Source of the DNA: Akkermansia muciniphila
GTDB lineage: Bacteria; Verrucomicrobiota; Verrucomicrobiia; Verrucomicrobiales; Akkermansiaceae
Assembly (NCBI GenBank): GCA_945901795.1
Contig: CAMDLP010000018.1
Coordinates: 1-52,663, forward strand
Length of the DNA stretch: 52,663 nt
Direction of reading: 5' to 3'
Shown: positions 12,290 to 31,799 of the stretch, in pieces
How the letters are laid out: every line of letters starts with the position of its first letter
How positions within the stretch are numbered: the stretch's first letter is position 1
The notes under the pieces: generated by a model
What the model saw: only the letters and a program-made list of their open reading frames with translations
The model's database searches: none
What the model was told of the DNA's origin: nothing
Program-made: the position numbers and the translations under genes

Positions 12290-12301
12290 ACTTGAACAGC
12301 C

Positions 12302-12332: not shown

Positions 12333-12465
12333 ACTCTGATTAAAGGCCTGTCCCTTTGCAGCGCGCAGGGGAATGGGTGAAGCCCGGCGGCGCCTAAGGG
12401 TGGTGGCGGGAAAAATTCCGGTTTCTTCACTGGCATCGGGGTGGGCTTCGTGTTGTTTTGCCGGC

Positions 12466-14250
12466 GTGTCCGCCGTCACGAATATCTCCACTTACCGCTT
12501 TGCCGAGCTAACGGGGCTGAAGGAATTGCGCGAGAATCTCATCGCCGATTGCAAGGCCTGGGGGCTGAAAGGAACAATCCTGCTGAGCACGGAAGGCATC
12601 AACCTGTTCGTCGCCGGAGCCGCGGAATCCATGGACTTGCTGCTCGCGAAACTCCGCGGAATTCCCGGGCTCGAAGACCTCGAGCCCAAGATCAGCCTCA
12701 GCGACGACCAGCCGTTCAACCGGATGCTGGTGCGCTTGAAAAAGGAGATCATCTCCTTCGGCATGGAGAGCATCCGCCCGGCGAATTACACCTCGCCGAA
12801 GATCGCGTCGGCCGAATTGAAGCGCTGGCTCGACGAGGGGCGCCCGGTGACTTTGCTCGACACCCGTAACGACTATGAGGTGAAGCTCGGCACCTTCAAG
12901 GGGGCGATCATTCCTAACATCAACACCTTCCGCGAGTTCCCGGACGCGGTGCGGAAACTGCCGGAGGAGCTCAAGGACCAGCCGGTGGTGATGTTCTGTA
13001 CCGGCGGCATCCGCTGCGAAAAAGCCGGGCCGTTCATGGAGAACGAGGGCTTTAGAAATATCTACCAGCTCGACGGCGGTATCCTCAAGTATTTCGAAGA
13101 ATGCGGCGGCGACCATTACGACGGCGAGTGCTTCGTCTTCGACCAGCGGGTGGGCGTGGACCCCGGCCTGCGCGAGTCGGGCTACGCGGTTTGTTTCGCC
13201 TGCCAGGCTCCGCTCGACGCGGCGGACCAGGAGGACCCGCGGCACGTCGAGGGCGTGAGTTGCCCGCATTGTTTCATTAGCGAGCCCGAACGGATGGCGG
13301 AGCGAATCACGCAACTGCACCAGACGATTGCGCGGGTTTCAAATCCCTTGCCCGGCTCGGTCGCTCAGGAAAACCGCCGCCCGGTCAATATCCCGGCAGC
13401 TCTCGACGGGTGGACCTTGCTCGAAGCGCTGAGCGAACTTTTTCCGCAGGTTTCTCCAACAGAATGGGAGGCGCGTTGCGATGGCGGGCGCTTCGAAAAC
13501 TACGGCGGCAGCGTCCGTGGAAAAGACCACGTCGTGCGCGGTGGCGAGCGAGTCGTCCAAATCTTCCCGCCGGATGTCGAGCCGCCGGTGTCGGCGGCGA
13601 TCGAGGTGCTGCACGAGGACGAGGCGATCTTGGTAGTTAGAAAACCCGCGCCGCTGCCGATGCACGCGAGCGGCCGCTTCCATCGCAACACGCTCCAACA
13701 CATTTTGAATGAGGTTTACGCGCCGAAATACCCGCGCCCGGTGCACCGTCTGGACGCTAACACCACCGGCCTCGTCGTCTTCGCCCGCACCCGCCATTTC
13801 TGCCGCTTGCTCCAGCGCCAGTTCCTCGAAGGCGCGGTGGACAAGCGCTACCTCGTCCGCGCGCTCGGTCATCCGGCACAGGACGTGTTCTTTTCCGAAG
13901 CTCCGATTTCCTCCGAGCCCGACGTGATGGGCACCCGCGGCATCGGCGAGTTAGACGGCTTGCCCTCGCGCACCGATTTCCAAGTCATCGAGCGCTGCGA
14001 GGACGGCACCACCTTGATCGAGGCGAAACTGGGAACCGGCCGGACCAATCAAATCCGCGTCCATCTCTGGCAGCTCGGCCATCCTGTCGTCGGTGATCCT
14101 GCCTATCTGCCAGACCACCGCATCGGCGACACGCAGACGCTCGATCCCGAAGCTCCGCCGCTCCAACTCCACGCCTGGAAACTTTCGTTCCAGCATCCGC
14201 GGACGGGCGAGGGGATGTGCTTTGAGACGGCGCGCCCGGACTGGGCCTAG
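12466..14250 (+). CDS. fusion: tRNA uridine hydroxylase (TrhO) + RluA-type pseudouridine synthase
   Basis: 594 residues from GTG 12466, giving (V)[11 protein letters not shown], the typical UPF0176/TrhO beginning. Residues 1-275 are TrhO: an N-terminal ferredoxin-like part, then a rhodanese domain with the catalytic loop CTGGIRCEK (Cys178), then the cysteine-rich tail (CFAC, CPHC). TrhO makes 5-hydroxyuridine at position 34 of some tRNAs. After a linker, about residues 310-370 resemble an S4-like segment. The rest is an RluA-family synthase with HRLDANTTG (residues 427-435, catalytic Asp) and [15 protein letters not shown]. Both halves look intact. A single open frame without weak spots argues for a real fusion. 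The uridine made pseudouridine cannot be told. Confidence 0.88.
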
Positions 14251-14398
14251 TTCGGCCGGTTTGGAGGATTTTCAAAATATGCGGCCGGGTGGCGTAACCT
14301 GCGTCGGGTTTCTCGGATTGATGGGTGTCGGGAGGAAGATTCGCTCCCAGACCGAGAGGTCGGCCGGAGCCGGTCCCTAGCTCAAATCAATACCCACC

Positions 14399-14956
14399 AT
14401 GAACCCGCTCAAATGATCATCCCTCGTCAGCACACTGGCCGCCTCGTTGGTCCTCACTGCAGTCACCGCTGCGGCGGACAAACCGTTTTCAAAAATCGTG
14501 ACCTTCGGCGACAGTCTGTCGGACACGGGGAACGCCTTCCTTTACACCGGCGGATTTTACCCTGCCAACGACCTTTTCACCACGCTGACCTTCGGCGGAA
14601 ACATAGGCCTAACCATTCATCATGCGGTGCAAAACACCGCGCAGTCGTTCGCCGCGCTTGCCAGCCATGGTGCCCGGCACATTCTGGTGGCCAATCTGCC
14701 TGACCTCGGACTCACAGCATTGGGGCGATCGCTCGGGCCGGTTGGCAGCGCGCAGTTGTCTTATCTGACAGACGTTTATAATGCCGGGCTGGACCAGGCC
14801 TAGGATTCGCTGGATGCCGCGGGGATTCCGACGATCCGCCTCGATGCCGCCGGTCTGATCCGGGAAATCGCCGCCAATCCCGAAAAATTCGGCTTGGTGA
14901 ACGCCACTGAAGCAGCCCTTGATTCCGGCAACGATGCGGACGATTATCTCTTCTGG
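14399..14956 (+). pseudogene. SGNH/GDSL esterase remnant
   Basis: The ancestral start is probably ATG 14399 (MNPLK). Codon 6 is TGA (14414), after which the same frame gives a signal peptide (SSLVSTLAASLVLTAVTAAA) and the GDSL block FGDSLSDTGNAFLYTGG. The region that normally follows (substrate-binding block and GxxN) appears lost, because YPAND jumps to LFTTLTFGGN. A later conserved piece is kept (ARHILVANLPDLGLT). A TAG at 14801 interrupts it again, then LDAAGLIREIAANPEKFGLVN continues to DDYLFW. Two nonsense codons plus deletion mean it cannot make the intact enzyme. The living family is secreted lipase/esterase with a Ser-Asp-His triad. Confidence 0.8.
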
Positions 14957-15277
14957 AAGGCGCGGCGTACCGACCGCTACCTGCGCGCGGTGGAAACGAT
15001 CCAACGCCACGGCATCACCGTGAACGGCTGCTTCATTTTAGGACTCGACGGCGATGGACCTGATAGTTTCGAGCACGTCTTCCGCTTCGTCGAGGAGAGC
15101 GGGGTTTACGACGTGCAAATCACCTACCTCACGCCATTTCCCGGAACACCCTTGTGGAAACGGCTCACCGAGGAAGGAAGGCTGCTCTCCGCGGAAGCGA
15201 CCGAACGCTGCACGCTCTTTGATATCAATTTCCGCCCCACCGACATGAGTGTGGAAGAGATCTCGATTGGGTGGTGA
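14957..15277 (+). pseudogene. radical SAM protein fragment (C-terminal part)
   Basis: Directly after the esterase remnant, and in the same frame, the translation changes to KARRTDRYLRAVETIQRHGI, VNGCFILGLDGDGPDSFEHV and TYLTPFPGTPLWKRLTEEGR, ending ERCTLFDINFRPTDMSVEE. This is the second half of a B12-binding-domain radical SAM enzyme. The N-terminal B12 domain and the CxxxCxxC cluster motif are missing, and the end is cut by TGA at 15275. There is no start codon of its own. It must derive from a deletion or recombination joining two unrelated genes. Confidence 0.8.
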
Positions 15278-15290
15278 TGCAGGCTCTCGA

Positions 15291-15773
15291 TTAGGACTCG
15301 GGTTCTTCCGCGAGTTTTGGCGGGATGAGATAGAGGAGAGTGCCGCTGCGCGAGGGCGGATTGATAGCGAGGCAGGCAATGGCGCCTTTTTTGACATCGA
15401 TGCTGCCGCCGTTAGCTCCGAGAATCCACTGGATGAGTTGGGAGAAATCCGGCTCATGGCCGACGATGGCGACGCGGTTGAAGTCGTGGAAAGCGGCGAG
15501 TTCTTTGAGCGCGTTTTCCGGAGTCATGCCGCAGGCGAGCCAACCCTGGATGGTGGCGCCGGGGATTTCCGCAGTCTGGCAGAATTCCTCGGCGGTCTGG
15601 CGGGCGCGGACGAGCGGGCTGGTCAGGACAATGTCCGGAAGCATTCCGGCGGCTTTCAAAAGCTTGGCGGTGCGGCGTGCCTGCTTGCGGCCTTTTTCAA
15701 CGAGGGCCCGCGAGAAATCGCCGTCGGCATGGCGGTCTTCGGCTTTTCCGTGGCGGAGGAGGACGAGTTCCAT
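15291..15773 (-). CDS. sixA: SixA-type histidine phosphatase
   Basis: 160 residues from ATG 15773 (MELVLLRHGKAED). LRHGKAE carries the phospho-accepting His of the histidine-phosphatase superfamily. SPLVRARQTAE and VGHEPDFSQL are the other core motifs. The size is that of SixA, a small cytoplasmic phosphatase that removes phosphate from histidine on HPt domains or on phosphotransferase-system proteins. It lies 32 bp downstream of fabG on the same strand; a small direct repeat (GAAAACT twice) sits in the gap. The partner phosphoprotein is not identifiable here. Confidence 0.85.
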   Translation of the reverse strand: MELVLLRHGKAEDRHADGDFSRALVEKGRKQARRTAKLLKAAGMLPDIVLTSPLVRARQTAEEFCQTAEIPGATIQGWLACGMTPENALKELAAFHDFNRVAIVGHEPDFSQLIQWILGANGGSIDVKKGAIACLAINPPSRSGTLLYLIPPKLAEEPES

Positions 15774-15805
15774 TTTTGGGTAGAAGCTGAAAACTGAAAA
15801 CTGAA

Positions 15806-16552
15806 TCACATCGTCATCCCGCCATCGACGGCGATGACTTGGCCGGTGATGTAGCGCGCGGCCGGGCTGGCGAGGAAGGTGACGACCTCGGCGATGTCCT
15901 TGGTTTCGCCGAAGGTGGCGAGCGGGATCTTGGCGATGACCGCGTCCTTGACGGCTTGGGGTAGCTCGTCGGTCATGTCGGTGGTGATGAATCCGGGGGC
16001 GACGGCGTTGCAGGTGACGCTGCGTCCGGCGAGTTCGCGGGCGACGGCTTTGGTGAAGCCGATCAGGCCGGCCTTGCTGGCGGAGTAGTTGGTTTGGCCG
16101 GCGTTGCCGATGAGTCCGATGACCGAGGCGATGTTGATGATGCGCGGGTCCTCGGCTTTCATCAGGACGCGCATGAAGGCTTTGACGGTGTTGAACGCGC
16201 CTTTGAGATTGGTGTCGAGCACGGTGTCCCAGTCCTCTTCCTTCATTCGCATGAGCAGGCCGTCGCGGGTGACACCGGCGTTGTTAACGAGGATGTTCAC
16301 GGTGCCGAGCTCCTCGCCGATTTTCTTGGCGAGCTCCTGCACGGCGGCATGGTCGGCGACGTCCACGGCGTAGGCGGTGGCGGAGCCGGGGAAGGCGGCG
16401 TTGATTTCCTCGGCGGCTTTGCCGCAGCTCGAAGCACTGCGGCTGACGACGGCGACTTTGGCACCCTCGGCGGCGAGTGCGCGGGCGATTTCCTGACCGA
16501 TTCCGCGGCCACCTCCGGTGACAACGGCGACTTTATTGGCAAAGCGTGACAT
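15806..16552 (-). CDS. fabG: 3-oxoacyl-ACP reductase FabG
   Basis: 248 residues from ATG 16552 (MSRFANKVAVVTGGGRGIGQ). It is a classical short-chain dehydrogenase: cofactor motif TGGGRGIG, NNAG at about 90, catalytic Ser in NIASVIG, and Tyr/Lys in NYSASKAG. VDGGMTM closes the chain as in FabG. The expected reaction is NADPH-dependent reduction of 3-oxoacyl-ACP in fatty-acid elongation. The rest of the fab cluster is not adjacent, so a paralogous short-chain dehydrogenase cannot be excluded. The open frame upstream of 16552 is Arg/Pro-rich and unlikely to be translated. Confidence 0.88.
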   Translation of the reverse strand: MSRFANKVAVVTGGGRGIGQEIARALAAEGAKVAVVSRSASSCGKAAEEINAAFPGSATAYAVDVADHAAVQELAKKIGEELGTVNILVNNAGVTRDGLLMRMKEEDWDTVLDTNLKGAFNTVKAFMRVLMKAEDPRIINIASVIGLIGNAGQTNYSASKAGLIGFTKAVARELAGRSVTCNAVAPGFITTDMTDELPQAVKDAVIAKIPLATFGETKDIAEVVTFLASPAARYITGQVIAVDGGMTM

Positions 16553-16633
16553 GCCGGGAAGGTGGCGGCGGCGGCGGGCGACTGTCAATCCTCGGGGCTT
16601 GCGGGCTGGTGGGGGAGGTGATGCAGTGGGCGG

Positions 16634-17557
16634 ATGAATTGGAAATTTCAAAGCGTGGCGGTGGTCGGCTCGGGAGCCATCGGGCTGTATTACGGCGGGC
16701 GGCTGGCGGAGGCGGGGGGAGATGTTAGATTTCTAATGCGTTCGGATTTCGAGGCGATTTCACGGGGCGGATTGAAGGTGGAGAGCGTGCATGGAAATTT
16801 CGAGTTGCCGCGGGTGCAGGCCTTCCGGACGCCGGGGGAAATTGGGCCGGTGGATCTGGTGATCGTGGCGTGGAAGGCGACGGCGAACCATCTGCTCGCC
16901 TCGGTTTTGCCGCCGCTGTTGCATGCGGGGACGCAGGTGCTGACGCTTCAGAACGGCTTGGGAAATTGCGAGGCACTGGCGGAAATCGTCGGTCCGCAGC
17001 GGGTGCTCGGCGGGCTGTGCTTCGTCTGTATCAACCGGATTTCTCCCGGCTTGGTGAATCACTCGGCGGGCGGGAGGATGACGATCGGTGAATTTCTGCC
17101 CGATGGAGGCGGCCGCGTCGGCGAGCTGGAGCGGCGTTTCAAGTCGGCGAAGATCCAAGCGGTCGCCGTCGAAAACCTGGAGAAATCGCAGTGGGAGAAA
17201 CTCGTCTGGAACATCCCGTTCAACGGGCTTTCCGTGGCGGAAGGCGGGGTGACCACCGACGTTTTGCTCGCCACGCGGGACAAGGAAAACGAGCTGCGCG
17301 CGCTGATGGTCGAGGTGATCGCCGCCGCCCGCGCGCAGGGGCTGGACCTCAGCGACGAGCTCATCGACTTCAACATCGAGCGGACCCGGCCGATGGGACC
17401 TTACCGGACGTCGAGCATGATTGATTTCGTGACAGGCCGGGAAGTCGAGGTCGCGCCGATCTGGGAGGAGCCGCTGCGGCGGGCGCGGGCGGCGGGAGTG
17501 GAGATGCGGCGCACGGCGGAGCTGCTGCGGTGGATTCGCGAGCGGTTGGCGAAGTGA
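16634..17557 (+). CDS. panE: ketopantoate reductase family protein (PanE/ApbA)
   Basis: 307 residues. The N-terminal Rossmann domain has GSGAIGLYYGGRL. The middle part has VAWKATANH and LQNGLGN, and the C-terminal helical domain has EKLVWNIPFNGLS and GRPTEVD-like spacing (FVTGREVEVAPIWEEPL). These are hallmarks of 2-dehydropantoate 2-reductase, which reduces ketopantoate to pantoate for coenzyme A. Because the family contains paralogues with other 2-keto acids, panE is likely but not proven. It is the last monocistronic gene before the large coupled operon, with 136 bp between. Confidence 0.85.
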   Translation: MNWKFQSVAVVGSGAIGLYYGGRLAEAGGDVRFLMRSDFEAISRGGLKVESVHGNFELPRVQAFRTPGEIGPVDLVIVAWKATANHLLASVLPPLLHAGTQVLTLQNGLGNCEALAEIVGPQRVLGGLCFVCINRISPGLVNHSAGGRMTIGEFLPDGGGRVGELERRFKSAKIQAVAVENLEKSQWEKLVWNIPFNGLSVAEGGVTTDVLLATRDKENELRALMVEVIAAARAQGLDLSDELIDFNIERTRPMGPYRTSSMIDFVTGREVEVAPIWEEPLRRARAAGVEMRRTAELLRWIRERLAK

Positions 17558-17693
17558 TCTGGAGGGATTTTTCCCGCGAGACAAAGCCCCTTGTGGCGAC
17601 CGCTAAAGTCGGCGAGAATGCGCTGGAACTTCCCGGATTCATTTGGGAGCTTCCGTCATTCGTTGCTGGACCGGGCCGCCGGTCGTTTCCCAT

Positions 17694-20324
17694 ATGGCAT
17701 CATCATTCACTCCTCCCGGCTCCAAAGCCGTCATTCCTGAATCGCTCCGGCTTCAGCTGGACGACTTCCGGCGTCATCTGTGGCGGGTGAAAACCATGGA
17801 GGCCATCGCCGCCGGACTGATCGGGCTGCTGGTTTCGTTCCTGCTGGTTTACGGGCTCGACCGGATTTGGCAGACGCCGGGCTGGGTGCGCTTCGGGATT
17901 CTTGTCGCCGGTATTTCGTTATTCACGGTTTTCGCGCCGTATTGGCTGCACCGCTGGGTCTGGCGGCAGCGGCGGGAAACCCAGCTCGCCCGCTTGATTG
18001 CGCGGCGTTATCCGGGCCTTGGCGATCGTCTGCTAGGCGTCATCGAGCTTCAGGATCAGGAGGGAAATGAGGATACGCTTTCTCCGCGGCTGCGCGAGGC
18101 GGCGATGGAGGCTGTGGCCATCGAGGCGGGAAAGCGCAAGCTCGACGAAGCGCTGCCACCGCAGAGACACCGGCGCTGGGCCTTGGTCGCGCTCTGCCTC
18201 GCGGGGATTTCCGCGGCGGCCTTCACCCTGACCCCGCGCGCCGGTTTGAACGCCCTGCAACGCTGGTTGATGCCGCTTTCAAAAACCGAGCGCTACACGT
18301 TCACCCGGCTGGAAAACCCGCCGGTTTACCGGGCGGTGGCGTTCGGTGAGGCGTTCCAGATCACGCTGCAACTGGCGCGCGATTCCGAGCAGCGCCCGGC
18401 GAAATCCAGCGGTCGCTACGGCCTGCAATCCGCGGTGGAAGCCTCGTTGAGAAAAGACCGGTATGAGTTCATGTTCCCCGGCCAGCAGGACGCCGGCACC
18501 ATCGTTTTCCACGTGGGGGATCTCCGCCACGAGGTCCGGGTGGAGCCGGTGCAGCGCCCCGCCATGGAAGACGCTGCGGCGGTCGTCACCCTGCCGTCCT
18601 ATCTCGGCATTCCGGAAAAAAGGGCCAACCTCAACACCGGCGTTCTGAGCGCGGTCGAGGGTAGTAAAATCCGGATTTCCCTGACGACCACCCGCGCGCT
18701 CGCCACCGCCAGCTTCGGACCGACCCGTTCGCAGACCATCGAGGAGTCGAAGGAGCCTCTATTCGCATACGTCCCGCTAGGCGGGCCGCTTGAAATTTCC
18801 GGCCCGGTCGCCAGCACGCCGGTCATCGAAATCGGCGCGATTTCGTTCGAGATTCCGTTCGCATGGACCGATAAGCTCGGACTTGCGGGTGAGTCCGGCT
18901 ACCGCTTGCGGGTCGATGCGATCCGCGATGCGGCGCCGACCTGTTACTTGCAGGGGATCGACCGCCAGAAGGTGATGCTGCCCGAGGAGACGGTCGATTT
19001 CGAGGTGCTGGCCGAGGATGATTTCGGAGTGAAACAAACAGGGATCGAGTGGTCCGGCCAATTCACTCGGCCCACCAGCGAGGCACCGGCGAAGGGCGAG
19101 CTGAAACTCGGCGACGGCTCGCCGGAAGAGCGGCGGATCGCCAAGGCCGCGTCGTTCTCACCCGCCGCCTTCGGCATCGCGCCGCAGAAGATCACCCTCC
19201 GCGGCTACAGCGAGGATCATTTCCCCGGGCGTGGCCGCGTTTATTCCGAGCCGGTCATCCTTTACGTGCTGACCCGTGACGAGCACGCGCAGATGTTGAA
19301 GAGCAAATTTGATCGGACGATCACCGAGTTCGAGGATCTCGCCCGGCGCGAGTTGGAGCTGCTGGATGAAAACCAGCGGCTCGAACGCCTGAGCGGCGAG
19401 GAACTCCAGAAAGAGTCTAACGAAAAACGTCTCGAAGCCCAGGAACAAGCGGAAGCCGAGAGCGAGCGGCGGATGAAGGACCTCACCGAGCGGATGGAAA
19501 ATCTGATGAAGGACGCCGCCCGCAACGGCGACATCCAGAAGGAAACGCTCAAGAAAATGGCGGAGTCGCTTAAGTCGATGCAGGAACTTTCCCAACAGGA
19601 TTTGCCGAAGGTGAAGGACAAACTCGGCGACTCGCAGGAGCAGTCAAACACGCCGGAAAAGGCGCAAAAAGACGTGGCCAAGGCCGTGGAGGAACAGAAA
19701 AAAGCCGTCGAGAAAATGCAGCAAGCCATCGCCAAGGCGAACGACGCGAACCGCCAGTTTGAAGCGGGCACCTTCGTCAACCGCTTGAAAAAGGCCGCCG
19801 GCGAGCAAAACGGAATCGCTGGCACGCTCATCGATGCCTACGAGCGGATTCTCGGAGTCAAGGCCTCGAAACTCGATCCCTCCGACCTGCGCCGCCTGAA
19901 TGAATCGATCAGCCAGCAGGCGAAAACCGCTTCGGACGTGCGCTGGCTGCAGGAAGACCTCGGCAGTTATTTCGCCCGCACCAAGACGGATTCCTTCAAG
20001 CAGATCCTGGATGAAATGAAGTCGTCGCAGATCGACAGCGGCTTGGAGGAGATCCGCACGATTCTAGGCTCCAACCATTCCTTCATCGCCACCGAGCAGT
20101 CGAAAAAATGGGCTGACAAACTCACCAAATGGGCGAAGAAGCTCGAAGGTGATCAAGAAAAAGATGGCGGTGGCGGCGGCGGTGGTGGCGGCCAGAGCCC
20201 CGAGGACGAGGACTTCGAGTTCATGCTGCGGGTGATGAAACTCGTCCAACAGGAACAAGACCTGCGCGCCCAAACCCGCGCGCTCGAACAATTCCGCCGC
20301 GGCAACCCACCACCCGAATCATGA
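17694..20324 (+). CDS. DUF4175-like membrane and coiled-coil protein
   Basis: 876 residues from ATG 17694. Two transmembrane helices lie near residues 36-56 (AIAAGLIGLLVSFLLVYGL) and 66-86, and a third near 160-180 (ALVALCLAGISAAAF). A periplasmic beta-rich stretch of about 340 residues follows. From about 530 to 720 the chain is a highly charged coiled coil (QRLERLSGEELQKESNEKR), then more helices, a run of ten glycines at about 823-833 and a helical tail. The layout resembles DUF4175-type proteins found in alpha/delta-proteobacteria and PVC bacteria, usually near MoxR/VWA genes. None of those is seen here. Its last four bases overlap the next start (ATGA), making it the head of a six-gene coupled operon. 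Confidence 0.75.
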   Translation: MASSFTPPGSKAVIPESLRLQLDDFRRHLWRVKTMEAIAAGLIGLLVSFLLVYGLDRIWQTPGWVRFGILVAGISLFTVFAPYWLHRWVWRQRRETQLARLIARRYPGLGDRLLGVIELQDQEGNEDTLSPRLREAAMEAVAIEAGKRKLDEALPPQRHRRWALVALCLAGISAAAFTLTPRAGLNALQRWLMPLSKTERYTFTRLENPPVYRAVAFGEAFQITLQLARDSEQRPAKSSGRYGLQSAVEASLRKDRYEFMFPGQQDAGTIVFHVGDLRHEVRVEPVQRPAMEDAAAVVTLPSYLGIPEKRANLNTGVLSAVEGSKIRISLTTTRALATASFGPTRSQTIEESKEPLFAYVPLGGPLEISGPVASTPVIEIGAISFEIPFAWTDKLGLAGESGYRLRVDAIRDAAPTCYLQGIDRQKVMLPEETVDFEVLAEDDFGVKQTGIEWSGQFTRPTSEAPAKGELKLGDGSPEERRIAKAASFSPAAFGIAPQKITLRGYSEDHFPGRGRVYSEPVILYVLTRDEHAQMLKSKFDRTITEFEDLARRELELLDENQRLERLSGEELQKESNEKRLEAQEQAEAESERRMKDLTERMENLMKDAARNGDIQKETLKKMAESLKSMQELSQQDLPKVKDKLGDSQEQSNTPEKAQKDVAKAVEEQKKAVEKMQQAIAKANDANRQFEAGTFVNRLKKAAGEQNGIAGTLIDAYERILGVKASKLDPSDLRRLNESISQQAKTASDVRWLQEDLGSYFARTKTDSFKQILDEMKSSQIDSGLEEIRTILGSNHSFIATEQSKKWADKLTKWAKKLEGDQEKDGGGGGGGGGQSPEDEDFEFMLRVMKLVQQEQDLRAQTRALEQFRRGNPPPES

Positions 20325-20941
20325 ACCGCCTCATTCCAACCATCGGTATCCTGTTTCTTGTCCCGCTGGCCGTTTCCGCCGACGAGCAGGCGCAGGCCAA
20401 GCACCGCGAGGGCTCCAGCAAGGTGGCGGACCGGCAGGACGAGCTTTCCGCCGACGTCCAGCAGCTCGCCATCGAGCAAACCGTGCCGAAGGTCATCGAG
20501 CTGCTCAACGAAGTGGAAAAGATCATGGACGAGGCGACCGACCAGCTCGCGGAATCTAACACCGGCGGCACCACGCTTGCGGCGCAAACCGAGGTGATCG
20601 AAAAAATCCACGAGGCGGCCAAGGAGAAGCAGAAGCAGCAGGGCAGCGGCCAGTCCGGCAGCGCGATGATGGACATGATGGAGCGCATGATGGGCAAAAC
20701 TCCCGACGCCGATAAAGACGGCAAGGGTAAAGGAAAGGGTGACAAACCCGGCGCCAAGGGCGGCGAAGGCATGACCGGCTTGTCCGATGCTGCTAACGAA
20801 GCGGGCGGCGGCGAAACCGGCGGTAAAAGCGAGGCCCGCCGGGTGCCCAAAGCCAGCGGCGGCGCGGGACGCGTGCTGCCCGAGGAATTTAGCAAGGCGC
20901 TCGACGCCTACAACCGGGGAGCGGAGCAAAAGACCAAGTGA
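20321..20941 (+). CDS. small exported helical/low-complexity protein
   Basis: 206 residues. The signal peptide is MNRLIPTIGILFLVPLAVSA. The first 100 mature residues form an acidic helix pair (LLNEVEKIMDEATDQLAESN), followed by a Met-rich stretch (SAMMDMMERMMGK) and a Lys/Gly/Asp-rich disordered region. The end (VLPEEFSKALDAYNRGAEQK) is again helical and may be a docking motif. Both ends are coupled by overlaps (ATGA at 20321, GTGA at 20938). I do not recognise a family. It could be the partner of the coiled coil encoded just upstream, which is similarly charged. Confidence 0.75.
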   Translation: MNRLIPTIGILFLVPLAVSADEQAQAKHREGSSKVADRQDELSADVQQLAIEQTVPKVIELLNEVEKIMDEATDQLAESNTGGTTLAAQTEVIEKIHEAAKEKQKQQGSGQSGSAMMDMMERMMGKTPDADKDGKGKGKGDKPGAKGGEGMTGLSDAANEAGGGETGGKSEARRVPKASGGAGRVLPEEFSKALDAYNRGAEQKTK

Positions 20942-21951
20942 AAACCATGATGATGAATCACCTTTTCGTCAGAATGATCGCGTTGCTCGCGGTCTGCGGG
21001 CTTGCCTCGGTCGCACGCTCGCAGGATCTGCCGGTCCGCCAGGATGACTCTGTTCCGGCGCAGGCGGAATTGATCTACGAGCGGGGATTGCAATACCTGG
21101 CCAAATCCCAGAACGAAAAAGGCAGTTGGAATGACAGCGGCGGCAGCGAGCCGGGTGTCGTCGGCTTGTGTGTGGCGGCCTTTCTGGCCCACGGCGAGGA
21201 TCCTAACAACGGCCCTTATTCCAAGAACATCCGCGCGGGCGTTGACTTCATCCTTTCCCAACAGAATGAGAAGAACGGCTACATCGGCTCCAGCATGTAT
21301 AACCATGCGTTCGCCACCAAGGCCCTCGCGGAATCCTACGGAATGCTCGACAACCCGAAGATCGCCCCGGCGCTTGAGAAAGCGGTCGAGCTGATCGTCA
21401 GTTCGCAGAAAAAAAACCGCTTCGGGGCGTGGCGCTACACTCCGGAAAGCCGCGACGCGGACACCACGGTGACCGGCTGCCAGATGGTCACCCTGTTCGC
21501 CGCGCGCAACGCCGGCGTCGCGGTGCCTGACGAGGCGATCAAGAAGGGCCTCGCCTATCTCGCGTCCTGCCGCAGCCGGGACGGCGATTACGGCTACACC
21601 TCGGCCTCGGGCGGCAAGCCCACGCTGACAGCCATTGGCTTGCTCTGCCTTTCGCTGGCCAAGGAGCGGGATTCGAAAGGCTATCAGGCGAGTCTGGCCT
21701 ATCTGCAGAAGAATATCGATTACCGGGATCGCTTCTATCCGTTCTATTTCGAGTATTACATGTCGCAGGCGTTGTTTCACGCGGATGAGGCGACGTGGAA
21801 GGAATGGAACGTCCGCAACATCCGTTATCTATCCACCATCCAGTCGTCGGACGGGTCGCTCCCCGGAAACCAAGGGACATCTTTCAACACGGCCGGCGCG
21901 CTCCTGTCGCTGGCGCTGAACTACCGCTTCCTACCCATCTACGAAAAATGA
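20938..21951 (+). CDS. exported prenyltransferase/squalene-oxidase repeat (alpha-toroid) protein
   Basis: 337 residues if started at GTG 20938, which overlaps the upstream stop. ATGs at 20947-20953 are alternatives. A signal peptide follows (FVRMIALLAVCGLASVARS). The mature chain has repeated helical pairs with the turn motif typical of terpenoid-cyclase-like toroids: QNEKGSWND, QNEKNGYIG, KNRFGAWRY, RDGDYGYT, SSDGSLPG. The DxDD-type acid motif of true squalene-hopene cyclases is not seen, so it is probably not a cyclase. In planctomycetes and verrucomicrobia such exported toroids often sit with VWA/MoxR-type gene clusters. Here it links the coiled-coil genes to the three barrel/jelly-roll paralogues. 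Confidence 0.82.
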   Translation: MKTMMMNHLFVRMIALLAVCGLASVARSQDLPVRQDDSVPAQAELIYERGLQYLAKSQNEKGSWNDSGGSEPGVVGLCVAAFLAHGEDPNNGPYSKNIRAGVDFILSQQNEKNGYIGSSMYNHAFATKALAESYGMLDNPKIAPALEKAVELIVSSQKKNRFGAWRYTPESRDADTTVTGCQMVTLFAARNAGVAVPDEAIKKGLAYLASCRSRDGDYGYTSASGGKPTLTAIGLLCLSLAKERDSKGYQASLAYLQKNIDYRDRFYPFYFEYYMSQALFHADEATWKEWNVRNIRYLSTIQSSDGSLPGNQGTSFNTAGALLSLALNYRFLPIYEK

Positions 21952-23462
21952 TTCACAAACTCGCGATTTCCTGGATTTCCGGCGTGATGGTTCTGGCTGC
22001 CGCCGAATCACCCGACCTGGTGCGTTTCACCAACGGCGACCAGCTTCACGGCGCGTTCCAAGGTTTCAAGGAAGGAGCCCAAGCCATCTGGCAGAGCGAC
22101 GACGCCGCCGCACCCGTGGATTTCAAGACCGCGAAGATCCGCCATGTCGTCCTCCATGGCGGCAGGCCGTCGAAGTCCCTGACATCGCTTTCCCACGTCG
22201 CGCTGGTGAATGGCGACCGCGTGCCGGGGAAGATCACCGGCATGGACGACGAGGCGATCACTTTGGAAACGCTCTATGCCGGGTCGTTGCGGATTCCCCG
22301 CGACCAGGTGGAGATGTTCGCGCCGAGCCCGTTAGGCGGGCGGATTCATTATCACGGGCCCTTTGTTGAAGATGAATGGCAGATGGCGAACGCCTCCTTT
22401 CCGGACGGCATGCCGCCGGCCTCGGATGAAAAGGACGGCAAGGAAAAGGACCAACCCGGACGCTGGGCTTTTTCCGGCTCCGCCTGGTATTGGCCGGGCA
22501 AGTTTTCCGGCACCGCGCTGCTGCGCGAGAAGGCGATGCCGGACCGCTCGATCCTGCGCTTCGACCTGGCATGGAAAAACCGGCTTTCGATGGCGATCGG
22601 GTTTCATGCCGATTTCGCGAAGACCAAGCCGCTCGATCCGGCGGTCAAGGATCAGGGAGCGCAGCAGGCCCGCGCCCGGGGATTTTCTTCGGGCGACTCC
22701 ACTGTCTTTCCGATGCTGTTCGGTAACAGCTACGTGCTGCAGGTTGTCTCCACCCACCTGATGCTCTTCCGCACCAGCGTGGACGCGGACGGCGGCCCCG
22801 TCGTCGAGCGGGTGCAAATCAACGGCAACTCGATCCGGTTAGGCGACAGCGGCAAGGCGCAGATCGAAATCCGCAGCAACCGCCTGAGCGGGCAGATCTC
22901 GCTGTTCATCAATGACGAGTTCATCGTCAGTTGGAGCGAGGGCGGGACGACTCCGGAAGACCAGGCCCGATATGCCGGGAAGGGTGGCGGCTTCGGGTTT
23001 GTGGTGCAGAACGAGGATTCTCCGGTGAGGATTTCCGACGTCATGGTCGCGGAGTGGAACGGGATGCCGGACTCGGCGCGCAGTCTGCAGACGGACGAGC
23101 AGGACATCGTTCTGCTAGCCAACGGCACCGACCGTTTTTCTGGAAAGGTGGGATCCCTCAAGGACGGGAAAATCCACCTTCAGGGGAAATACGGCCAGTT
23201 TCTGTTTGAAATCGACGACATCGCCGAGATCCGTTTCGCCCGCGGCCGGCTGGCCAAGGAGACCGATCTGGCCTCGGATTCGCTGACCGTCCGGCTCAGT
23301 CCGCTCGGCCGGATTTCCGGTCGTCCTCTCGCGGGAAGCGCTTCCTCGATCCGGATCCTCAATCCGGTCTGCGGTGAAATGAACCTCAACCTGGAATCCG
23401 CAGTCATGCTGGATTTCAAACCATCCAACAACGTTATTGATGACTGGGACGCGGAATTCTAA
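21948..23462 (+). CDS. exported barrel-repeat/jelly-roll paralogue 1
   Basis: 504 residues, starting in an ATGA overlap, with a signal peptide (MIHKLAISWISGVMVLAAAE). Residues about 24-70 (VRFTNGDQLHGAFQGF) and 82-128 (VALVNGDRVPGKITGM) are two copies of a small beta pattern of the form 'xNGDxhxGxh'. HYHGPF then marks the start of a domain of about 240 residues with jelly-roll-like strands (QIEIRSNRLSGQISLFINDE; ISDVMVAEWNG). Two further barrel-like repeats follow at about 386-433 (LLANGTDRFSGKVGSL) and 445-495. The Sm/SH3-like and LamG/DUF1080-like folds are my inference. Its 3' end overlaps the next gene by 23 bp. Function unknown; probably periplasmic or surface-exposed. Confidence 0.75.
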   Translation: MIHKLAISWISGVMVLAAAESPDLVRFTNGDQLHGAFQGFKEGAQAIWQSDDAAAPVDFKTAKIRHVVLHGGRPSKSLTSLSHVALVNGDRVPGKITGMDDEAITLETLYAGSLRIPRDQVEMFAPSPLGGRIHYHGPFVEDEWQMANASFPDGMPPASDEKDGKEKDQPGRWAFSGSAWYWPGKFSGTALLREKAMPDRSILRFDLAWKNRLSMAIGFHADFAKTKPLDPAVKDQGAQQARARGFSSGDSTVFPMLFGNSYVLQVVSTHLMLFRTSVDADGGPVVERVQINGNSIRLGDSGKAQIEIRSNRLSGQISLFINDEFIVSWSEGGTTPEDQARYAGKGGGFGFVVQNEDSPVRISDVMVAEWNGMPDSARSLQTDEQDIVLLANGTDRFSGKVGSLKDGKIHLQGKYGQFLFEIDDIAEIRFARGRLAKETDLASDSLTVRLSPLGRISGRPLAGSASSIRILNPVCGEMNLNLESAVMLDFKPSNNVIDDWDAEF

Positions 23463-24795
23463 CTTCAGAACATGGCTTGGCCTCCTGATCGCCTGCGGTG
23501 CCCCCGGCGTGCTCCGCGCCGACAGCCTGGTCCTCGCGGATGACGCGCGCCTCACCGGCACGGTCCGCTCGATCAACGAGGCGGGCGTGGTCGAGTTGAC
23601 GACGGTGCTCTCCCCGGAGCCGGTGCTGCTCAAGGCTGATGCGGTCGAGAAGGTCGAATTCAGCGCACCGGCATCGGCGCCTGCCGCGGCGGGCACCTTG
23701 ATCGAACTGGCCAACGGCGATCTCCTTCCGGCGGCCATCGAGAGTCTGGATGACAAGAACCTCAACGTGGTCACGGCGGATGCGGGGCGCTTGCGCATTC
23801 CCCGAGCGGCTTTGAAAGCGCTGCAGGTCGGCGTGCGCGAACAGAAAGTCATCTATCGCGGCCCGAAGAATTCCGAGGAGTGGGGCGCGTATGCGGAGCA
23901 GGCGAAAATCTGGCAGTTTGCTAACAACGCGCTCACCGCCAACGGCCCGTCCCAGTCGGCCAGGGAGTTCGCGGCTCCGCTGCAGTTCGTCCTCAAGTTC
24001 AGCTTGAAGTGGCAGGCCAATCCGATGTTCAAGATCTACTTCGCGGATCCGCTGACGCCCAAGGTGGAACTGGTGGACCGCTATTTCATGCAATACGGCA
24101 GCGCGGGCCTGGAGATCAAACGTGAATCCAGCAAGGGCAAGCACTATCATACGGTGATCCAGTTGCCGCGCAGCCCGGATCAATTTCCCGCCAACGAGCT
24201 TGCGGTGGAAATCCGGGTGGATCGCAAGACCTCGCGGATTCACCTGCTTCTCAATGGCGAGCCCGAGGGTGCCGGAGTCGATCCGGCCGGCGCCGCGCCG
24301 CAGGGCAACGGAGTGGTCATCACGAGCAACGCGCCGTCCGGGTCCGTTCAGGAAATCCGCGGGATCGAGATTCTCGAGCTCGACAACGTCGGGACACGCC
24401 ATCGCTCCGAAGAGCGCGGCGACGCCAAGACTGATAGTTTGATCAGCCGCGACGAGGATCGCTGGGGCGGACGCTTGATCGGCATTCGCAAGGGGCCGGA
24501 AGGAGCGGTTTTTTCATTCAAGAGCGATTTTCAGGAGGAGCCGCTGGACCTTCCGGAGGCCGATGTTTCGACGGTGTTTTTCGCCAAGCCGGCGCAAACC
24601 GATGCTCCGGCGCCGGCCCATCAGTTCGCCCTGCGCCTCCGTGGTGAAGGTTCCCTCCGCGTGTCTTCCTGCGCGTTCTCCGCCGACGAGGTCACCGCGG
24701 TGCATCCGCTGCTCGGCCCGTTGAAGATCCGCCGGGTGGGGGTCTCCGGCCTGGAGCGTCTGGATTCCAAACCCGAAGTAAAATCAAAGGAATGA
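23440..24795 (+). CDS. exported barrel-repeat/jelly-roll paralogue 2
   Basis: 451 residues from ATG 23440 (TTG 23437 is also in frame), overlapping the previous gene. A signal-like segment (TWLGLLIACGAPGVLRADS) leads to the same order as its neighbours. Two barrel-like repeats lie at about 28-75 (LVLADDARLTGTVRSI) and 87-132 (IELANGDLLPAAIESL). Then comes VIYRGP, the jelly-roll-like region at about 145-330 with FKIYFADP, and two weaker repeats at about 331 and 393 (ALRLRGEGSLRVSSC). It is the most diverged of the three: the second NGD repeat has lost the usual glycine, and the jelly-roll is shorter. The stop overlaps the third paralogue (ATGA at 24792). Confidence 0.73.
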   Translation: MTGTRNSNFRTWLGLLIACGAPGVLRADSLVLADDARLTGTVRSINEAGVVELTTVLSPEPVLLKADAVEKVEFSAPASAPAAAGTLIELANGDLLPAAIESLDDKNLNVVTADAGRLRIPRAALKALQVGVREQKVIYRGPKNSEEWGAYAEQAKIWQFANNALTANGPSQSAREFAAPLQFVLKFSLKWQANPMFKIYFADPLTPKVELVDRYFMQYGSAGLEIKRESSKGKHYHTVIQLPRSPDQFPANELAVEIRVDRKTSRIHLLLNGEPEGAGVDPAGAAPQGNGVVITSNAPSGSVQEIRGIEILELDNVGTRHRSEERGDAKTDSLISRDEDRWGGRLIGIRKGPEGAVFSFKSDFQEEPLDLPEADVSTVFFAKPAQTDAPAPAHQFALRLRGEGSLRVSSCAFSADEVTAVHPLLGPLKIRRVGVSGLERLDSKPEVKSKE

Positions 24796-26186
24796 AACTC
24801 GTCCTGCCATCCGCGGTTTTCGCCGCCGCTTTGACGCTCGCTTCCACCGCCGACGAGGTGAAATCGACCGTGCGGTTTTCCAACAACGACCGGCTGTCCG
24901 GCAGCATGGAGTCGCTCTCGACCGAGCGCTTGGTCTGGAAATCCCCGATCCTGGAAAAGTCCACGCCGTTTTTTCTCAAGGATGTTCTTGATCTCACTCT
25001 GGCCGCCGAGCAGCCCGATTCCAAAGCGAGGCATGAGGCGTCTATCACCCTGACCCGCGGCGAGGTGATTCGCGGGCAGCTCGCAGCGGTGAGTGACGAG
25101 GTCGTCGAGCTGGACACCTGGTTTGCGGGGCGCATGAAATTCAACCGCCTGAACATCGCCGGGATCAAGATTTCCGAGCGGCCGGATTTCATCTATCGGG
25201 GGCCCACCGGCCTCGATGGCTGGAAGCAATCCGGCGACAAGCCCGCGTGGACTTTTCAGAATTCCCGCTTCCGCTCGGTGGCTGCCGGAAGCATCGCGAG
25301 AAACGTGGATTTGCCCGACGAGTGCGCGATTGCTTTCGATGCCGCTTGGCGTGGCTCGTTCGCTCTGAAGCTGGTATTCTTCTCGGATGATTTGGCGAGC
25401 GACCATCCCGCGAGCGGCTACGAACTGGCGATCCAGTCGCGCTCGGTGTATCTGCGGAGCTGCAAGACGCAGAAGTTTCTCGGTCACACGGCGAGCGCCG
25501 TGACGCTTCAGGAAAACGAAAAGGCGCACATCGAGGTGCGTGCCAGTTTGAAATCGGGTAAGATCTGCCTGTTTCTGGACGGTGAAATCATCGATGTCTG
25601 GACGGATCCCGACGTGGTCCGCAACGAGGTGGGGCGGGGGATTCATTTCATCACGCAGAACGAGTCGCCGGTGCAAATTTCCGGCATCGAGATCAGCGCG
25701 TGGGATGGCGAGGTGGACAAGCTTCCCAATCTCCAGGCCATGGGCGGATTTCGCCAGTTCGGAATCCAGGGTCTGATGGAAGAGGAGGACGAACCGGAGT
25801 CCGTGCCCGAGGAAAAGACGAACAAGCGGCGGGTGGAGTTGCGCAACGGTGACAGCATCGACGGCGAGGTCGTGTCCATCAGCGATGGCATGATCACCTT
25901 GAAGACTCCGTTCCGCGAGGTGAGGTTGCCGGTCGAGGCGCTCCGCTCGGTCGCCCTGAAACCGGCGGATTTGGAAACCTCCAAGCGCGAGAACGGCGAT
26001 GTCAGGGCATGGTTTTCCGACGGCTCGTGGATCGTCTTCCGGCTCGAAGGCGTGGGCGAGGGGACTCTGACCGGCTATAACCAGAGTTTCGGAACCGTGG
26101 TTTTCAAGATGGCGGCCTTCAATCGTATCGAGTTCAATATCTACGACCCGGAGTTCGAAGACCTCCGGATGGCGAGCGGTTGGTGA
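24792..26186 (+). CDS. exported barrel-repeat/jelly-roll paralogue 3
   Basis: 464 residues with signal peptide [20 protein letters not shown]. The repeats are at about 25-70 ([16 protein letters not shown]) and 82-128 ([16 protein letters not shown]). FIYRGP follows, then the jelly-roll-like region at about 140-325 ([39 protein letters not shown]). An acidic linker ([14 protein letters not shown]) comes next, then repeats at about 346-390 ([16 protein letters not shown]) and 404-455. The shared motifs ('(I/F)YRGP', 'NE/QNxSPVxISxIxxxxWxG') make common descent with the two upstream genes likely. It is the last gene of the coupled operon: a palindromic operator begins 10 bp after its stop. Confidence 0.75.
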
Positions 26187-26196
26187 ATTCCGGGGG

Positions 26197-26218
26197 GATT
26201 GTGAAAATTTTCACAATC
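26197..26218. promoter_or_regulatory. perfect 22-bp dyad upstream of nuoB, Rex- or CRP-like operator
   Basis: The inner 18 bases (26199-26216) read TTGTGAAAATTTTCACAA. That matches the Rex operator consensus TTGTGAA-N4-TTCACAA without mismatch, and also the CRP pattern TGTGA-N6-TCACA. The dyad extends perfectly by two more bases on each side. It ends 54 bp before the nuoB ATG. There is no T-tract and no loop, so a terminator is unlikely. Because NADH dehydrogenase genes are classical targets of the NADH-sensing repressor Rex, regulation of nuoBC by redox state is the simplest reading; which regulator this organism has is not visible. Confidence 0.6.
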
Positions 26219-26272
26219 AACTTGAGGGGACGCCGCAGCGCGGGCAAGGTCCAGCCAAGTCAGCAACGCACC

Positions 26273-26809
26273 ATGGTCAGCCCTTCTCCCAACACCGTCC
26301 ACACGGCCTACGATTCGAAAATCGAGGGCAACGTGATCATCACCCGCGTGGATGCCGCCATCAACTGGATGCGGAAGAACTCGCTGTGGCCGATGCCGAT
26401 GGGCCTCGCCTGCTGCGCGATCGAGTTGATGGCGACGGCGTCGAGCCGCTTCGACATTTCCCGCTTCGGGATGGAAGTGATGCGGTTTTCGCCCCGCCAG
26501 GCGGACGTTTTGATCGTTTCCGGGACGGTGACTTACAAGATGGCGTTGGCGGTGAAGCGGGTCTGGGACCAGATGCCGGAGCCGAAATGGTGCATCGCGA
26601 TGGGGGCCTGCGCCTCTTCCGGCGGGATGTATCGCAGCTACGCGGTGCTGCAGGGCATCGACAAGTTAATCCCGGTGGATGTCTATATTTCCGGCTGCCC
26701 GCCGCGGCCCGAGGCGTTGATCGAAGGGCTGATGAAGCTGCAAACGAAGATCGAGGGCGAGCATTCCACGATGGATCAAAAGAAGGCGTTGTTCGACGGG
26801 ATCGCCTGA
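26273..26809 (+). CDS. nuoB: NADH-quinone oxidoreductase subunit B
   Basis: 178 residues from ATG 26273. The four ligands of cluster N2 are present: Cys47 and Cys48 in GLACCAIEL, Cys113 in GACASSGG, and Cys142 in GCPPRPEAL. The subunit sits at the junction of the peripheral and membrane arms of complex I and passes electrons to quinone. Length is normal. nuoC follows after 23 bp, but nuoA is not upstream and nuoD is not downstream, so this is a partial nuo cluster. The dyad at 26197-26218 lies in its promoter region. Confidence 0.96.
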
Positions 26810-26832
26810 GTTTTTCACACCGAATTTACGAA

Positions 26833-27402
26833 ATGTCAGCAGCAGCCGATGTCACCCAGCTCCGCGATGCGTTCGGCGGAAAAGTCGTTGAAACCCTGGA
26901 ATTCCGCGGTGAACAAACCGTGCGCGTGGAGCTCGGCTCCTTGCACGACGTGCTCGCGAAATGCCGCAACGACCTCGGCTACGAGATGATTCTGGATATT
27001 TCCAGCGTCGATTATTTCGGCGAGGACCCGCGCTTCGAGATGGTTTATGAAATCGCCACGCTGGATGATTCCAAGCATCTGCGGATCAAGGCGAAGGTCG
27101 CGGAGGACGAGAAAGTGCCGTCGGCGACGGATCTTTGGTTAGGCGCGGACTGGCACGAGCGGGAGGTTTGGGACATGATGGGAATTCCGTTTTCCGGCCA
27201 CCCGAATTTGAAGCGCATCCTGATGTGGGAGGGCTATCCGTTTTTCCCGCTGCGGAAGGATTTCCCGCTCGCCGGCCGTCCCACGGACATGCCGGATGTG
27301 GCGTTCACCGGAGTGGCGCCGCTGGAAGGCGGGCCGTTCGTGACGAGCGCCGGCGGCGAGGACGTCGCCCGCCGCGAGCCGCGGGCGCAGGTGGTCGAGT
27401 GA
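26833..27402 (+). CDS. nuoC: NADH-quinone oxidoreductase subunit C
   Basis: 189 residues from ATG 26833. Conserved parts of the 30-kDa subunit are ISSVDYFGEDPRFEMVYEI, ADWHEREVWDMMGIPFSGHP, LKRILMWEGYPFFPLRKDF and the short tail. It belongs to the peripheral arm of complex I next to NuoB and NuoD. The frame is open far upstream through nuoB, but that part is out-of-frame shadow. It is a separate protein, not a NuoCD fusion, because it ends soon after LRKDFPLAGRP. A rhomboid gene follows after 23 bp. Confidence 0.93.
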   Translation: MSAAADVTQLRDAFGGKVVETLEFRGEQTVRVELGSLHDVLAKCRNDLGYEMILDISSVDYFGEDPRFEMVYEIATLDDSKHLRIKAKVAEDEKVPSATDLWLGADWHEREVWDMMGIPFSGHPNLKRILMWEGYPFFPLRKDFPLAGRPTDMPDVAFTGVAPLEGGPFVTSAGGEDVARREPRAQVVE

Positions 27403-30301: not shown

Positions 30302-30330
30302 TTGACATTTCCACTTGCGACACCCAACAA
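30302..30330 (+). promoter_or_regulatory. possible -35 element before pseudopilin cassette
   Basis: TTGACA at 30302-30307 lies 65 bp before the first cassette start (30372). At the usual distance there is only a poor -10 (AACAAA or CAACAA). The upstream galE stop is 17 bp away. A weak or activator-dependent promoter for the D-B-C cassette is possible; the match may also be chance. Confidence 0.25.
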
Positions 30331-30371
30331 AGGCAGCCACTTTTCCCCAACCCCAACCCGAATACAAACCC

Positions 30372-31082
30372 ATGCACTCAGCTGATTTGAAAATTCATCC
30401 CCGGCGGCGCGGCCAAGCCTTCACTTTAATAGAAATGCTCGTCGTCATCGCCATCATGTCCATTCTGATGACCGCCGGAGCCATCGGCCTCGGCGGCATG
30501 GGTGGCAAGGGCGTGACCAGCGGGGTGGCTTCGGCCGAGTCGTTGTTTGACGAGGCGAGATCGATCGCTGTCGGCCAGCAGACCCGGGCACGGGTGATGG
30601 TCGCCAAGGATTTGACCAATAATTCCGCCGACAACCTCCGTCGTATCGTAGTCGCTTCCGAATCTCTCAAGGCGGACGGCACGCCCGATACCGATAATTG
30701 GATCCTCTCCAGCCGTGGCGTGGTGCTTCCGGATCAAACTTATTTCAGTCAGGAGTATAGCAAGAAGGATCAGAAGGCTGGGAGTGGCACGATCGATTCT
30801 TTCAGTCTGCCATCGACGGCCAAAGCCGCATATCAAGGATCCTATTACTATTATGAGTTCAACGCCGAAGGGATCTGCACGACTCCCGGGGCGGGTTTCG
30901 TCGTCGGTGCGGGAGCGCGGAAGATCAACGCTAGTGCGACCGACAAGCCCAAGGTCACCTCCGCCGGTAAGCGCGATTTCGGTGGCTTCGTGGTTTGGCG
31001 CAATGGCCGGACCTCGGTTTTCCGCAGCCCCACCCAGATCGCCAGCGGCATTCAGTCTCTTAACTCAGGTGCCCAATTTTAA
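30372..31082 (+). CDS. pseudopilin, Verru_Chthon cassette protein D-like
   Basis: 236 residues from ATG 30372. A basic leader (HPRRRGQA) precedes FTLIEMLVVIAIMSILMTAG, the prepilin helix; the residue before the cleavage site is Ala instead of Gly, which PVC pseudopilins often show. The following helix (ASAESLFDEARSIAVGQQTR) and the C-terminal part (DFGGFVVWRNGRTSVFRSP) fit what I remember of the cassette D family. It is the first gene of a three-gene cassette, 3 bp ahead of the next. By family it is an inner-membrane pseudopilin with a large C-terminal domain. The role of these cassettes is unknown. Confidence 0.78.
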   Translation: MHSADLKIHPRRRGQAFTLIEMLVVIAIMSILMTAGAIGLGGMGGKGVTSGVASAESLFDEARSIAVGQQTRARVMVAKDLTNNSADNLRRIVVASESLKADGTPDTDNWILSSRGVVLPDQTYFSQEYSKKDQKAGSGTIDSFSLPSTAKAAYQGSYYYYEFNAEGICTTPGAGFVVGAGARKINASATDKPKVTSAGKRDFGGFVVWRNGRTSVFRSPTQIASGIQSLNSGAQF

Positions 31083-31085
31083 TTC

Positions 31086-31799
31086 ATGAAACCCTCTTCC
31101 ATTTCCCGCCGCCACGGCTTCACTCTTCTCGAAACCGTCATCGCCATCGGCGTGCTCGCCGTGCTTCTCACCGGTTTCATGGTGGTGTTCGCCCCGGCCG
31201 CCGACGGCATCCGCAAGTCCATCAATGTCCAGCAGGCCGACCGCATGGCGTCCGCGCTGGAGCAGGAGCTGGTGACGCTGCGCAACAAGGATTTTCCGAC
31301 CGGATTTAACAAGGCTTTCGATTGGATTCAGAAGTCAAATGTAGCTGTGCCGACGGACGCGTTGCTGGTCTATCAATATCGGGGCAAGATTTCGAGCCTC
31401 CGGACGGATGATAATACGCCCACTCCGGAACCGTTGCTTAAAGATAAGCTGCCGGGGCAGGACTACGTGGTGGTCCCGATGGTAAGGCGCAAGAGCGATC
31501 CGAAACTTGCCGAAGATTTGGCGGCCGTGGAAGGTGCCGTCTATTTAGTGAAATGCACTCAGTTGATCTTCAGTGGAGGCCAGCTTATCGCAGGCACGGT
31601 TGGCGCGATCAAAGATCCGAAGGGCGGAGCCGTGACGGCTTCGGCTGAGGTTTACCCGGAGGCCGTCATCGCGTTCTCGGCTGAATTTCACATGCTGCCC
31701 GCCAAAACCGCCTCCTATATTTCCGGGTCCGCATTCACCACGAAGTTCGGCAACGTCAAAAACCCGGTCTTCACCCGCAATCTCGCCGTTCGTCGTTAA
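31086..31799 (+). CDS. pseudopilin, Verru_Chthon cassette protein B-like
   Basis: 237 residues. Leader MKPSSISRRHG, then FTLLETVIAIGVLAVLLTGF with Glu at +5. The next part (VFAPAADGIRKSINVQQADR, MASALEQELVTLR) is characteristic of the cassette B family as I recall it. The body is a mixed globular domain. The sequence around 31340-31450 is more A+T-rich than its neighbours. It is 21 bp before the cassette C gene. Confidence 0.8.
   Translation: MKPSSISRRHGFTLLETVIAIGVLAVLLTGFMVVFAPAADGIRKSINVQQADRMASALEQELVTLRNKDFPTGFNKAFDWIQKSNVAVPTDALLVYQYRGKISSLRTDDNTPTPEPLLKDKLPGQDYVVVPMVRRKSDPKLAEDLAAVEGAVYLVKCTQLIFSGGQLIAGTVGAIKDPKGGAVTASAEVYPEAVIAFSAEFHMLPAKTASYISGSAFTTKFGNVKNPVFTRNLAVRR

Follow-up and report, generated by a model that had tools for sequence, protein, structure and literature searches.

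The stretch analyzed here is a 52,663-nucleotide contig of Akkermansia muciniphila (assembly GCA_945901795.1, contig CAMDLP010000018.1; the window), in which six consecutive plus-strand genes, g1 to g6 (positions 17694-26186), encode a membrane anchor, a charged exported protein, an exported toroid and three exported paralogues (Table 1). The block follows a panE-like gene. Every junction within it is an overlap, four being of 4 bp (ATGA at 20321, 21948 and 24792; GTGA at 20938) and one of 23 bp (at 23440), as a first-pass annotation of this DNA had reported. That annotation had also proposed a membrane anchor with exported partners, which agrees with the distribution of hydrophobic segments: three in g1 (19-mers from residues 37, 67 and 162) and one near the N-terminus of each of g2-g6. 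In our view this block is probably one half, the exported and downstream one, of a MoxR-DUF58-BatA-VWA/GATase1-like-(DUF4175-like) envelope system. In other verrucomicrobial families the two halves form one cluster, and in the family of the window they occupy separate loci that are inherited together.

Table 1. Coordinates of the six-gene block, of other features in the window, and of related loci elsewhere in the same genome (G000)
Feature	Location	Coordinates	Strand	Description
g1	window	17694..20324	+	876 aa; inner-membrane anchor; DUF4175-like by position only
g2	window	20321..20941	+	206 aa; charged, exported; equals C-terminal part of g1 in other families
g3	window	20938..21951	+	337 aa, GTG start; exported single alpha-alpha toroid, PF13243 above cut-off
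g4	window	21948..23462	+	504 aa; exported paralogue 1; putative architecture, from homology to g6
g5	window	23440..24795	+	451 aa; exported paralogue 2; putative architecture, from homology to g6
g6	window	24792..26186	+	464 aa; exported paralogue 3; modelled small barrels and ConA-like domain
MoxR	L111 (C35)	5809-6831		AAA_3 210.4 bits, above cut-off
DUF58	L111 (C35)	7071-7961		156.3 bits, above cut-off
BatA	L111 (C35)	8680-10659		BatA N-terminal domain 74 bits, above cut-off
VWA/GATase1-like	L111 (C35)	11433-13646		label from relatives and profile matches to VWA structures
Paralogous cluster	L136 (C46)	9112-19163		BatA-VWA/GATase-g1-like (1479 aa)-toroid
625-aa ORF	window	12373-14250		putative two-part protein
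panE-like gene	window	16634-17557		upstream neighbour of the block
nuoB and nuoC-type genes	window	26180-27402		directly downstream of the block
Three pilin/pseudopilin-like genes	window	30315-32771		prokaryotic N-terminal methylation motifs

The first-pass annotation had held this gene set to be distinct from MoxR/VWA clusters. Outside the family of the window, it is the downstream part of just such a cluster. Loci were fetched for 16 of the 28 carriers from other families (L137-L152), and 13 of these (L137, L139, L141, L142, L144-L152) display the order MoxR-DUF58-BatA-VWA/GATase-g1(g2), with the toroid gene present in all 13 and paralogues in view in 12; L152 gave no paralogue match. Among the other three, L140 has only the BatA and VWA/GATase genes upstream, with no MoxR or DUF58 match in about 3 kb further upstream, and L138 and L143 have none of the MoxR, DUF58, BatA and VWA/GATase genes upstream. 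The whole order is present in the genome G154 as well (L291). Across all 28 outside-family carriers, the g1 and VWA/GATase genes share a strand within 6 kb of each other in 19 and are on different contigs in nine, some of which are perhaps merely contig breaks.

The earlier statement that the set has no ATPase or VWA gene holds for this stretch and fails for the genome, which carries the MoxR-DUF58-BatA-VWA/GATase1-like half at another locus (L111; Table 1). A relative that supports the VWA label of its last gene is L094 (VWA, 29.1 bits; cut-off 23.8). Outside genus g3 (genus handles are independent of the gene names), the set from MoxR to VWA/GATase is contiguous in all ten loci examined in the family of the window (L111, L247-L250, L254-L257, L260), and it stands next to rpsM/rpsD in six of them. 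L111 itself adjoins genes identified as rpsD and rpsM, the Pfam check of rpsD having been made on the L211 copy. At L211, the MoxR genes and the run from g1 to the paralogues flank rpsM-rpsD on either side, an arrangement between the joined and the separated forms.

Phylogenetic trees, built from 38 MoxR and from 37 VWA/GATase sequences, place L111 as an orthologue with the intact clusters and not with a paralogous cluster of the same genome. The g1-linked MoxR proteins fall on one side of a branch with support 98/99, and the g1-linked VWA/GATase proteins are separated from the others at 100/100; L111 is inside both groups, and the own-genome VWA/GATase paralogue of L136 is outside. L136 held no MoxR and is hence missing from the MoxR tree, in which the remaining MoxR proteins do not form one group and include several long branches of unsure placement.

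Several other clusters of related type were observed. L136 is a second, paralogous cluster of the window's genome (Table 1), with no match to the paralogue profiles, and two further MoxR-DUF58 clusters of another type, with weak VWA-profile matches alongside, lie on contigs C3 (L110) and C7 (L113). One other member of the family has a second, intact MoxR-DUF58-BatA-VWA/GATase cluster (L101 and L094, G115:C172), possibly acquired from outside, in which a trypsin/PDZ (HtrA-like) gene precedes g1.

Among 288 genomes of the phylum, one and the same set of 51, drawn from 10 families, has orthologues of g1, the toroid and the VWA/GATase protein, and the remaining 237 have none of the three, when score limits are placed at natural gaps (g1, at least 329 bits, next match 163; toroid, 322, next 252; VWA/GATase, 708, next 370). 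With loose limits these numbers become 58, 131 and 75 genomes, respectively, the extras being weaker, paralogue-level matches. Gene g1 directly neighbours g3 in 22 of 23 genomes of the window's family, two of three genomes of family f4 and 21 of 25 others. The corresponding numbers for g1 and the VWA/GATase gene are 0 of 23, two of three and 17 of 25. The two genes are on one contig in 11 of the 23 genomes, at linear distances of 18 kb to 2.3 Mb, and on different contigs in 12. In a set of 117 genomes of this family, 103 have both genes, one has g1 only, four have VWA/GATase only and nine have neither (Fisher p 8e-10, relatedness ignored; the g1 match of G091 and the VWA/GATase match of G020 counted as paralogues). 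The nine belong to genera g1, g3 (four genomes), g4, g5 (two) and g6, which suggests several losses, with the genomes of genera g4 and g6 being only 69% and 85% complete. In genus g3, the cognate MoxR (71% identical) is present in three of three genomes with the gene g1, and only MoxR proteins of 40-46% identity are found in three of three genomes without it. That the two halves belong together is thus well supported.

The block is conserved in its own right. We compiled 80 named loci, which were gathered via gene g3 and are therefore uninformative on genomes without it; 51 of them have more than 3.5 kb upstream and more than 5.2 kb downstream of this gene. The genes g1 and g2 lie just upstream in 44 of the 51 (they are missing in L201, L210, L222, L230, L232, L233 and L234), and three paralogues follow in 47, two in two loci, four in one and one in one. 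The orthologues are thus neither scattered without co-occurrence nor are the paralogues found mostly alone in Verrucomicrobiota, consistent with the single conserved system first proposed. Overlaps of 4 bp recur among the named loci at g1/g2 (46 of 67), g2/g3 (32 of 71), g3/first paralogue (49 of 71), first/second paralogue (9 of 67) and second/third paralogue (52 of 61), and in another 50 pairs of first and second paralogues the downstream frame stays open through the stop codon, which would fit a longer overlap. In a control of 40 loci based on mechanical gene calls, such overlaps were found at 57 of 143 in-block junctions versus 13 of 156 same-strand flanking junctions. Some genomes have the block itself divided. 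In genus g11, g1-g2 and g3 with its three paralogues are on different contigs (G051, L071/L072; G033, L073/L074), and genomes of genus g3 have the system in three pieces, namely MoxR-DUF58 (L273, L274), BatA-VWA/GATase (L251-L253, L259, L292) and g1-g2-toroid with two paralogues (L081-L083, L246).

Structural models show g1 as a predicted inner-membrane anchor that carries Ig-like domains and an extended run of helices. The model (pLDDT 83.2, pTM 0.55) has three membrane helices (within about 34-58, 63-92 and 159-180), an Ig-like beta-sandwich region (205-525) and a long stretch of helices (528-870), in which a poly-Gly linker at about 822-842 is modelled with low confidence. Matches in the fold search reach Z 9.3, mainly over the Ig-like region (202-527), and hardly cover the helical part. 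No NCBIfam match of g1 came near any curated cut-off, and no family matched more than one of 24 g1 members at E<=0.01. In all 16 outside-family loci examined, a single open frame of about 1,026-1,336 aa covers both g1 and g2; L084, L085 and L099 likewise have the fusion, and two separate genes are present in L100 and in the window, where g2 has its own N-terminal hydrophobic stretch.

The products of g4, g5 and g6 were described as paralogues from the outset, and this stands: g5 and g4 are 17% and 22% identical to g6, and the profile of each retrieves the others. The g6 model (pLDDT 84.8, pTM 0.71) places small barrels at 25-69, 81-129, about 347-388 and 403-447 around a middle domain, residues 133-303, that is predicted to adopt the ConA-like lectin/glucanase fold (a jelly roll; Z 18.7, rmsd 2.4 over 172 residues to 1oq1_B). 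A functional identity for g6 was not accepted from the Foldseek matches, which, ranked by E-value, mix ConA-domain proteins of differing function, many at rmsd of about 20 over the whole chain, and are informative on the fold only. By profile comparison, barrels 1-3 appear homologous (hhalign probability 96.6 for 1-2, 95.5 for 1-3 and 97.1 for 2-3), and barrel 4 is more weakly related (67.9, 8.3 and 4.6 to barrels 1, 2 and 3, respectively). These five-strand barrels, candidates for the Sm/SH3-like type, gave an Hfq-like match of only E 0.18. Two loci from another family of the same order encode proteins of about 1050 aa with two paralogue units in one chain (L098, residues 132-543 and 544-1003; L099, 49-418 and 451-870). 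Because of these double-unit chains and the single g1/g2 chain in 16 of 16 loci, the initial idea that the paralogues form a hetero-oligomer gains indirect support.

The nuoB gene downstream of the block (Table 1) was rejected as a member of the system, being in view in only two of the 80 named loci (L156 and L158; many loci are cut short); it also occurs near the cluster in L144. The 625-aa ORF upstream putatively joins a TrhO-type rhodanese portion to a pseudouridine synthase portion of RluA type. Further downstream lie three consecutive pilin/pseudopilin-like genes.

Could the block instead be a stand-alone six-protein envelope complex without an ATPase, with the MoxR neighbourhood of other families being incidental? 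The lack of any g1-VWA/GATase adjacency in the 23 genomes of the window's family would fit, as would the presence of MoxR-type genes in view at only one of the 80 named loci (L211) and their absence from 20 kb upstream of g1 in L258 (G124, another family of the order). However, the occurrence of g1, toroid and VWA/GATase in the same 51 of 288 genomes disfavours it, as do the joint absence of g1 and the cognate MoxR in genus g3 and the adjacency in 19 of 28 outside-family carriers, and we consider it unlikely. The toroid invites another reading, namely that it acts as a terpene-cyclase-like enzyme in a block devoted to making or altering a membrane lipid. It was first described as an exported alpha-toroid, and rightly so, given its N-terminal hydrophobic stretch and a score of 41.7 bits to PF13243, the C-terminal domain of squalene-hopene cyclase (cut-off 26.1); its sequence also matches lanosterol synthase and squalene-hopene cyclases. 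DXDD is the catalytic motif of squalene-hopene cyclase. It is found in none of 24 aligned toroid rows, in which the stretch most like it is mostly DADT, as read without a cyclase in the alignment, and the C-terminus is LP[IV]YE[KR] in all 24. Moreover, this toroid is single and bears a hydrophobic N-terminus, and in the intact clusters the genes upstream are of MoxR/VWA type (isoprenoid genes were not searched for). The missing motif led us to reject the cyclase reading, which we hold to be very improbable. The paralogues might, alternatively, bind external polysaccharide, the system then serving nutrient glycan capture and not envelope upkeep. CBM66 and L-type lectins are among the structural matches of the g6 middle domain, but a common ConA fold reveals no ligand, the paralogue-bearing system co-occurs with the VWA/GATase protein, and when the genes flanking 40 loci were clustered, no neighbour family exceeded eight members (cluster functions unassigned). 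We lend this reading little credence.

Known MoxR systems offer further comparisons. In alphaproteobacterial MoxR-DUF58-DUF4159-DUF4175 clusters, a membrane-anchored DUF4175-type protein follows MoxR/DUF58/VWA-type genes, as g1 does in the intact clusters, but g1 is below the DUF4175 cut-off and, to our knowledge, the toroid and the paralogues are not part of those clusters. The Mxa gene set serves methanol dehydrogenase activation; it would be alike as a MoxR machine whose client is periplasmic, with the difference that no methanol dehydrogenase link was seen here, none having been looked for. A MoxR role in methanol dehydrogenase activation is described in PMC3893208. The vWA-MoxR ternary conflict systems (PMC7159879) share MoxR and vWA proteins and come with effectors, whereas the genes described here recur through whole families with exported parts. 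There is also a likeness to MoxR-DUF58-BatA/VWA operons, such as Bat of Bacteroides and spirochaetes and RL3499-RL3502/cmd of Rhizobium (PMC5700661, PMC3893208), in the AAA_3 MoxR, the DUF58 protein, the BatA N-terminal domain and the predicted envelope location; the present system adds g1/g2, the toroid and the ConA/barrel paralogues and is broken into two or three loci in the window's family. The BatA N-terminal domain of the cognate half would suit a strictly Bat-type stress system for aerotolerance, and Bat regions are described as conserved without a definite function (PMC5700661). Yet neither toroid nor ConA-like parts are named among the Bat genes in the excerpts consulted (BatD/TPR partners were not looked for), and we find this identity quite improbable. 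Searches of the open-access literature found nothing linking DUF4175 with MoxR or Verrucomicrobia with DUF4175, only diet/antibiotic work for Akkermansia muciniphila with MoxR, and, for combinations of three or more of the cluster's domains and the phylum name, only a methylotroph pangenome.

Several points weigh against assigning the block to a MoxR-driven envelope system. Membership of g1 in DUF4175 (PF13779) had to be rejected (13.4 bits, cut-off 27.3; no match at E<=0.01 among 24 members). At L111, the BatA protein scores below the VWA_2 cut-off (17.1 versus 27), and the next protein is below that of GATase1_like (16.4 versus 27) and has no Pfam VWA match. The limits behind the count of 51 genomes were chosen after the gaps were seen, with few first-look candidates scored per genome, and these genomes are related and do not represent 51 independent events. 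Since the halves are non-adjacent in all 23 genomes of the window's family, any joint expression is hypothetical. The biochemical role is inferred, and the rhizobial phenotype cited below belongs to a distant operon.

With these points considered, the best reading of the block is that of a periplasmic arm belonging to an envelope-maintenance machine, which MoxR would drive and whose genes are spread over two or three loci. The MoxR AAA+ ring and DUF58 would act on g1 from the cytoplasmic side via the membrane-bound VWA proteins, and the periplasmic Ig-like domains and long helical region of g1, with g2, may transmit movement or serve as a scaffold for the toroid and for the three ConA-like/small-barrel paralogues in a hetero-assembly. 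This assembly might be in contact with a glycan or glycoprotein of the envelope, and the machine would probably serve the chaperone-like assembly or maintenance of an envelope component. The closest experimental clues are that MoxR proteins have been described as chaperone-like and that Rhizobium RL3499 is reported to matter for cell morphology and the integrity of the membrane (PMC3893208; similarly PMC5700661).

In the excerpted literature, MoxR/VWA operons are chaperone-like, with roles that are unclear or indefinite. The present results link one such machine to a constant set of exported partners, through their common presence in the same genomes. Tentatively, many Verrucomicrobiota families may thus possess a not-yet-described MoxR-powered trans-envelope machine, in which a cytoplasmic AAA+ motor would drive a membrane-anchored helical arm that organises a periplasmic toroid and a hetero-oligomer of glycan-reading ConA/small-barrel proteins, and which selection would have kept as a unit though its genes were repeatedly scattered.

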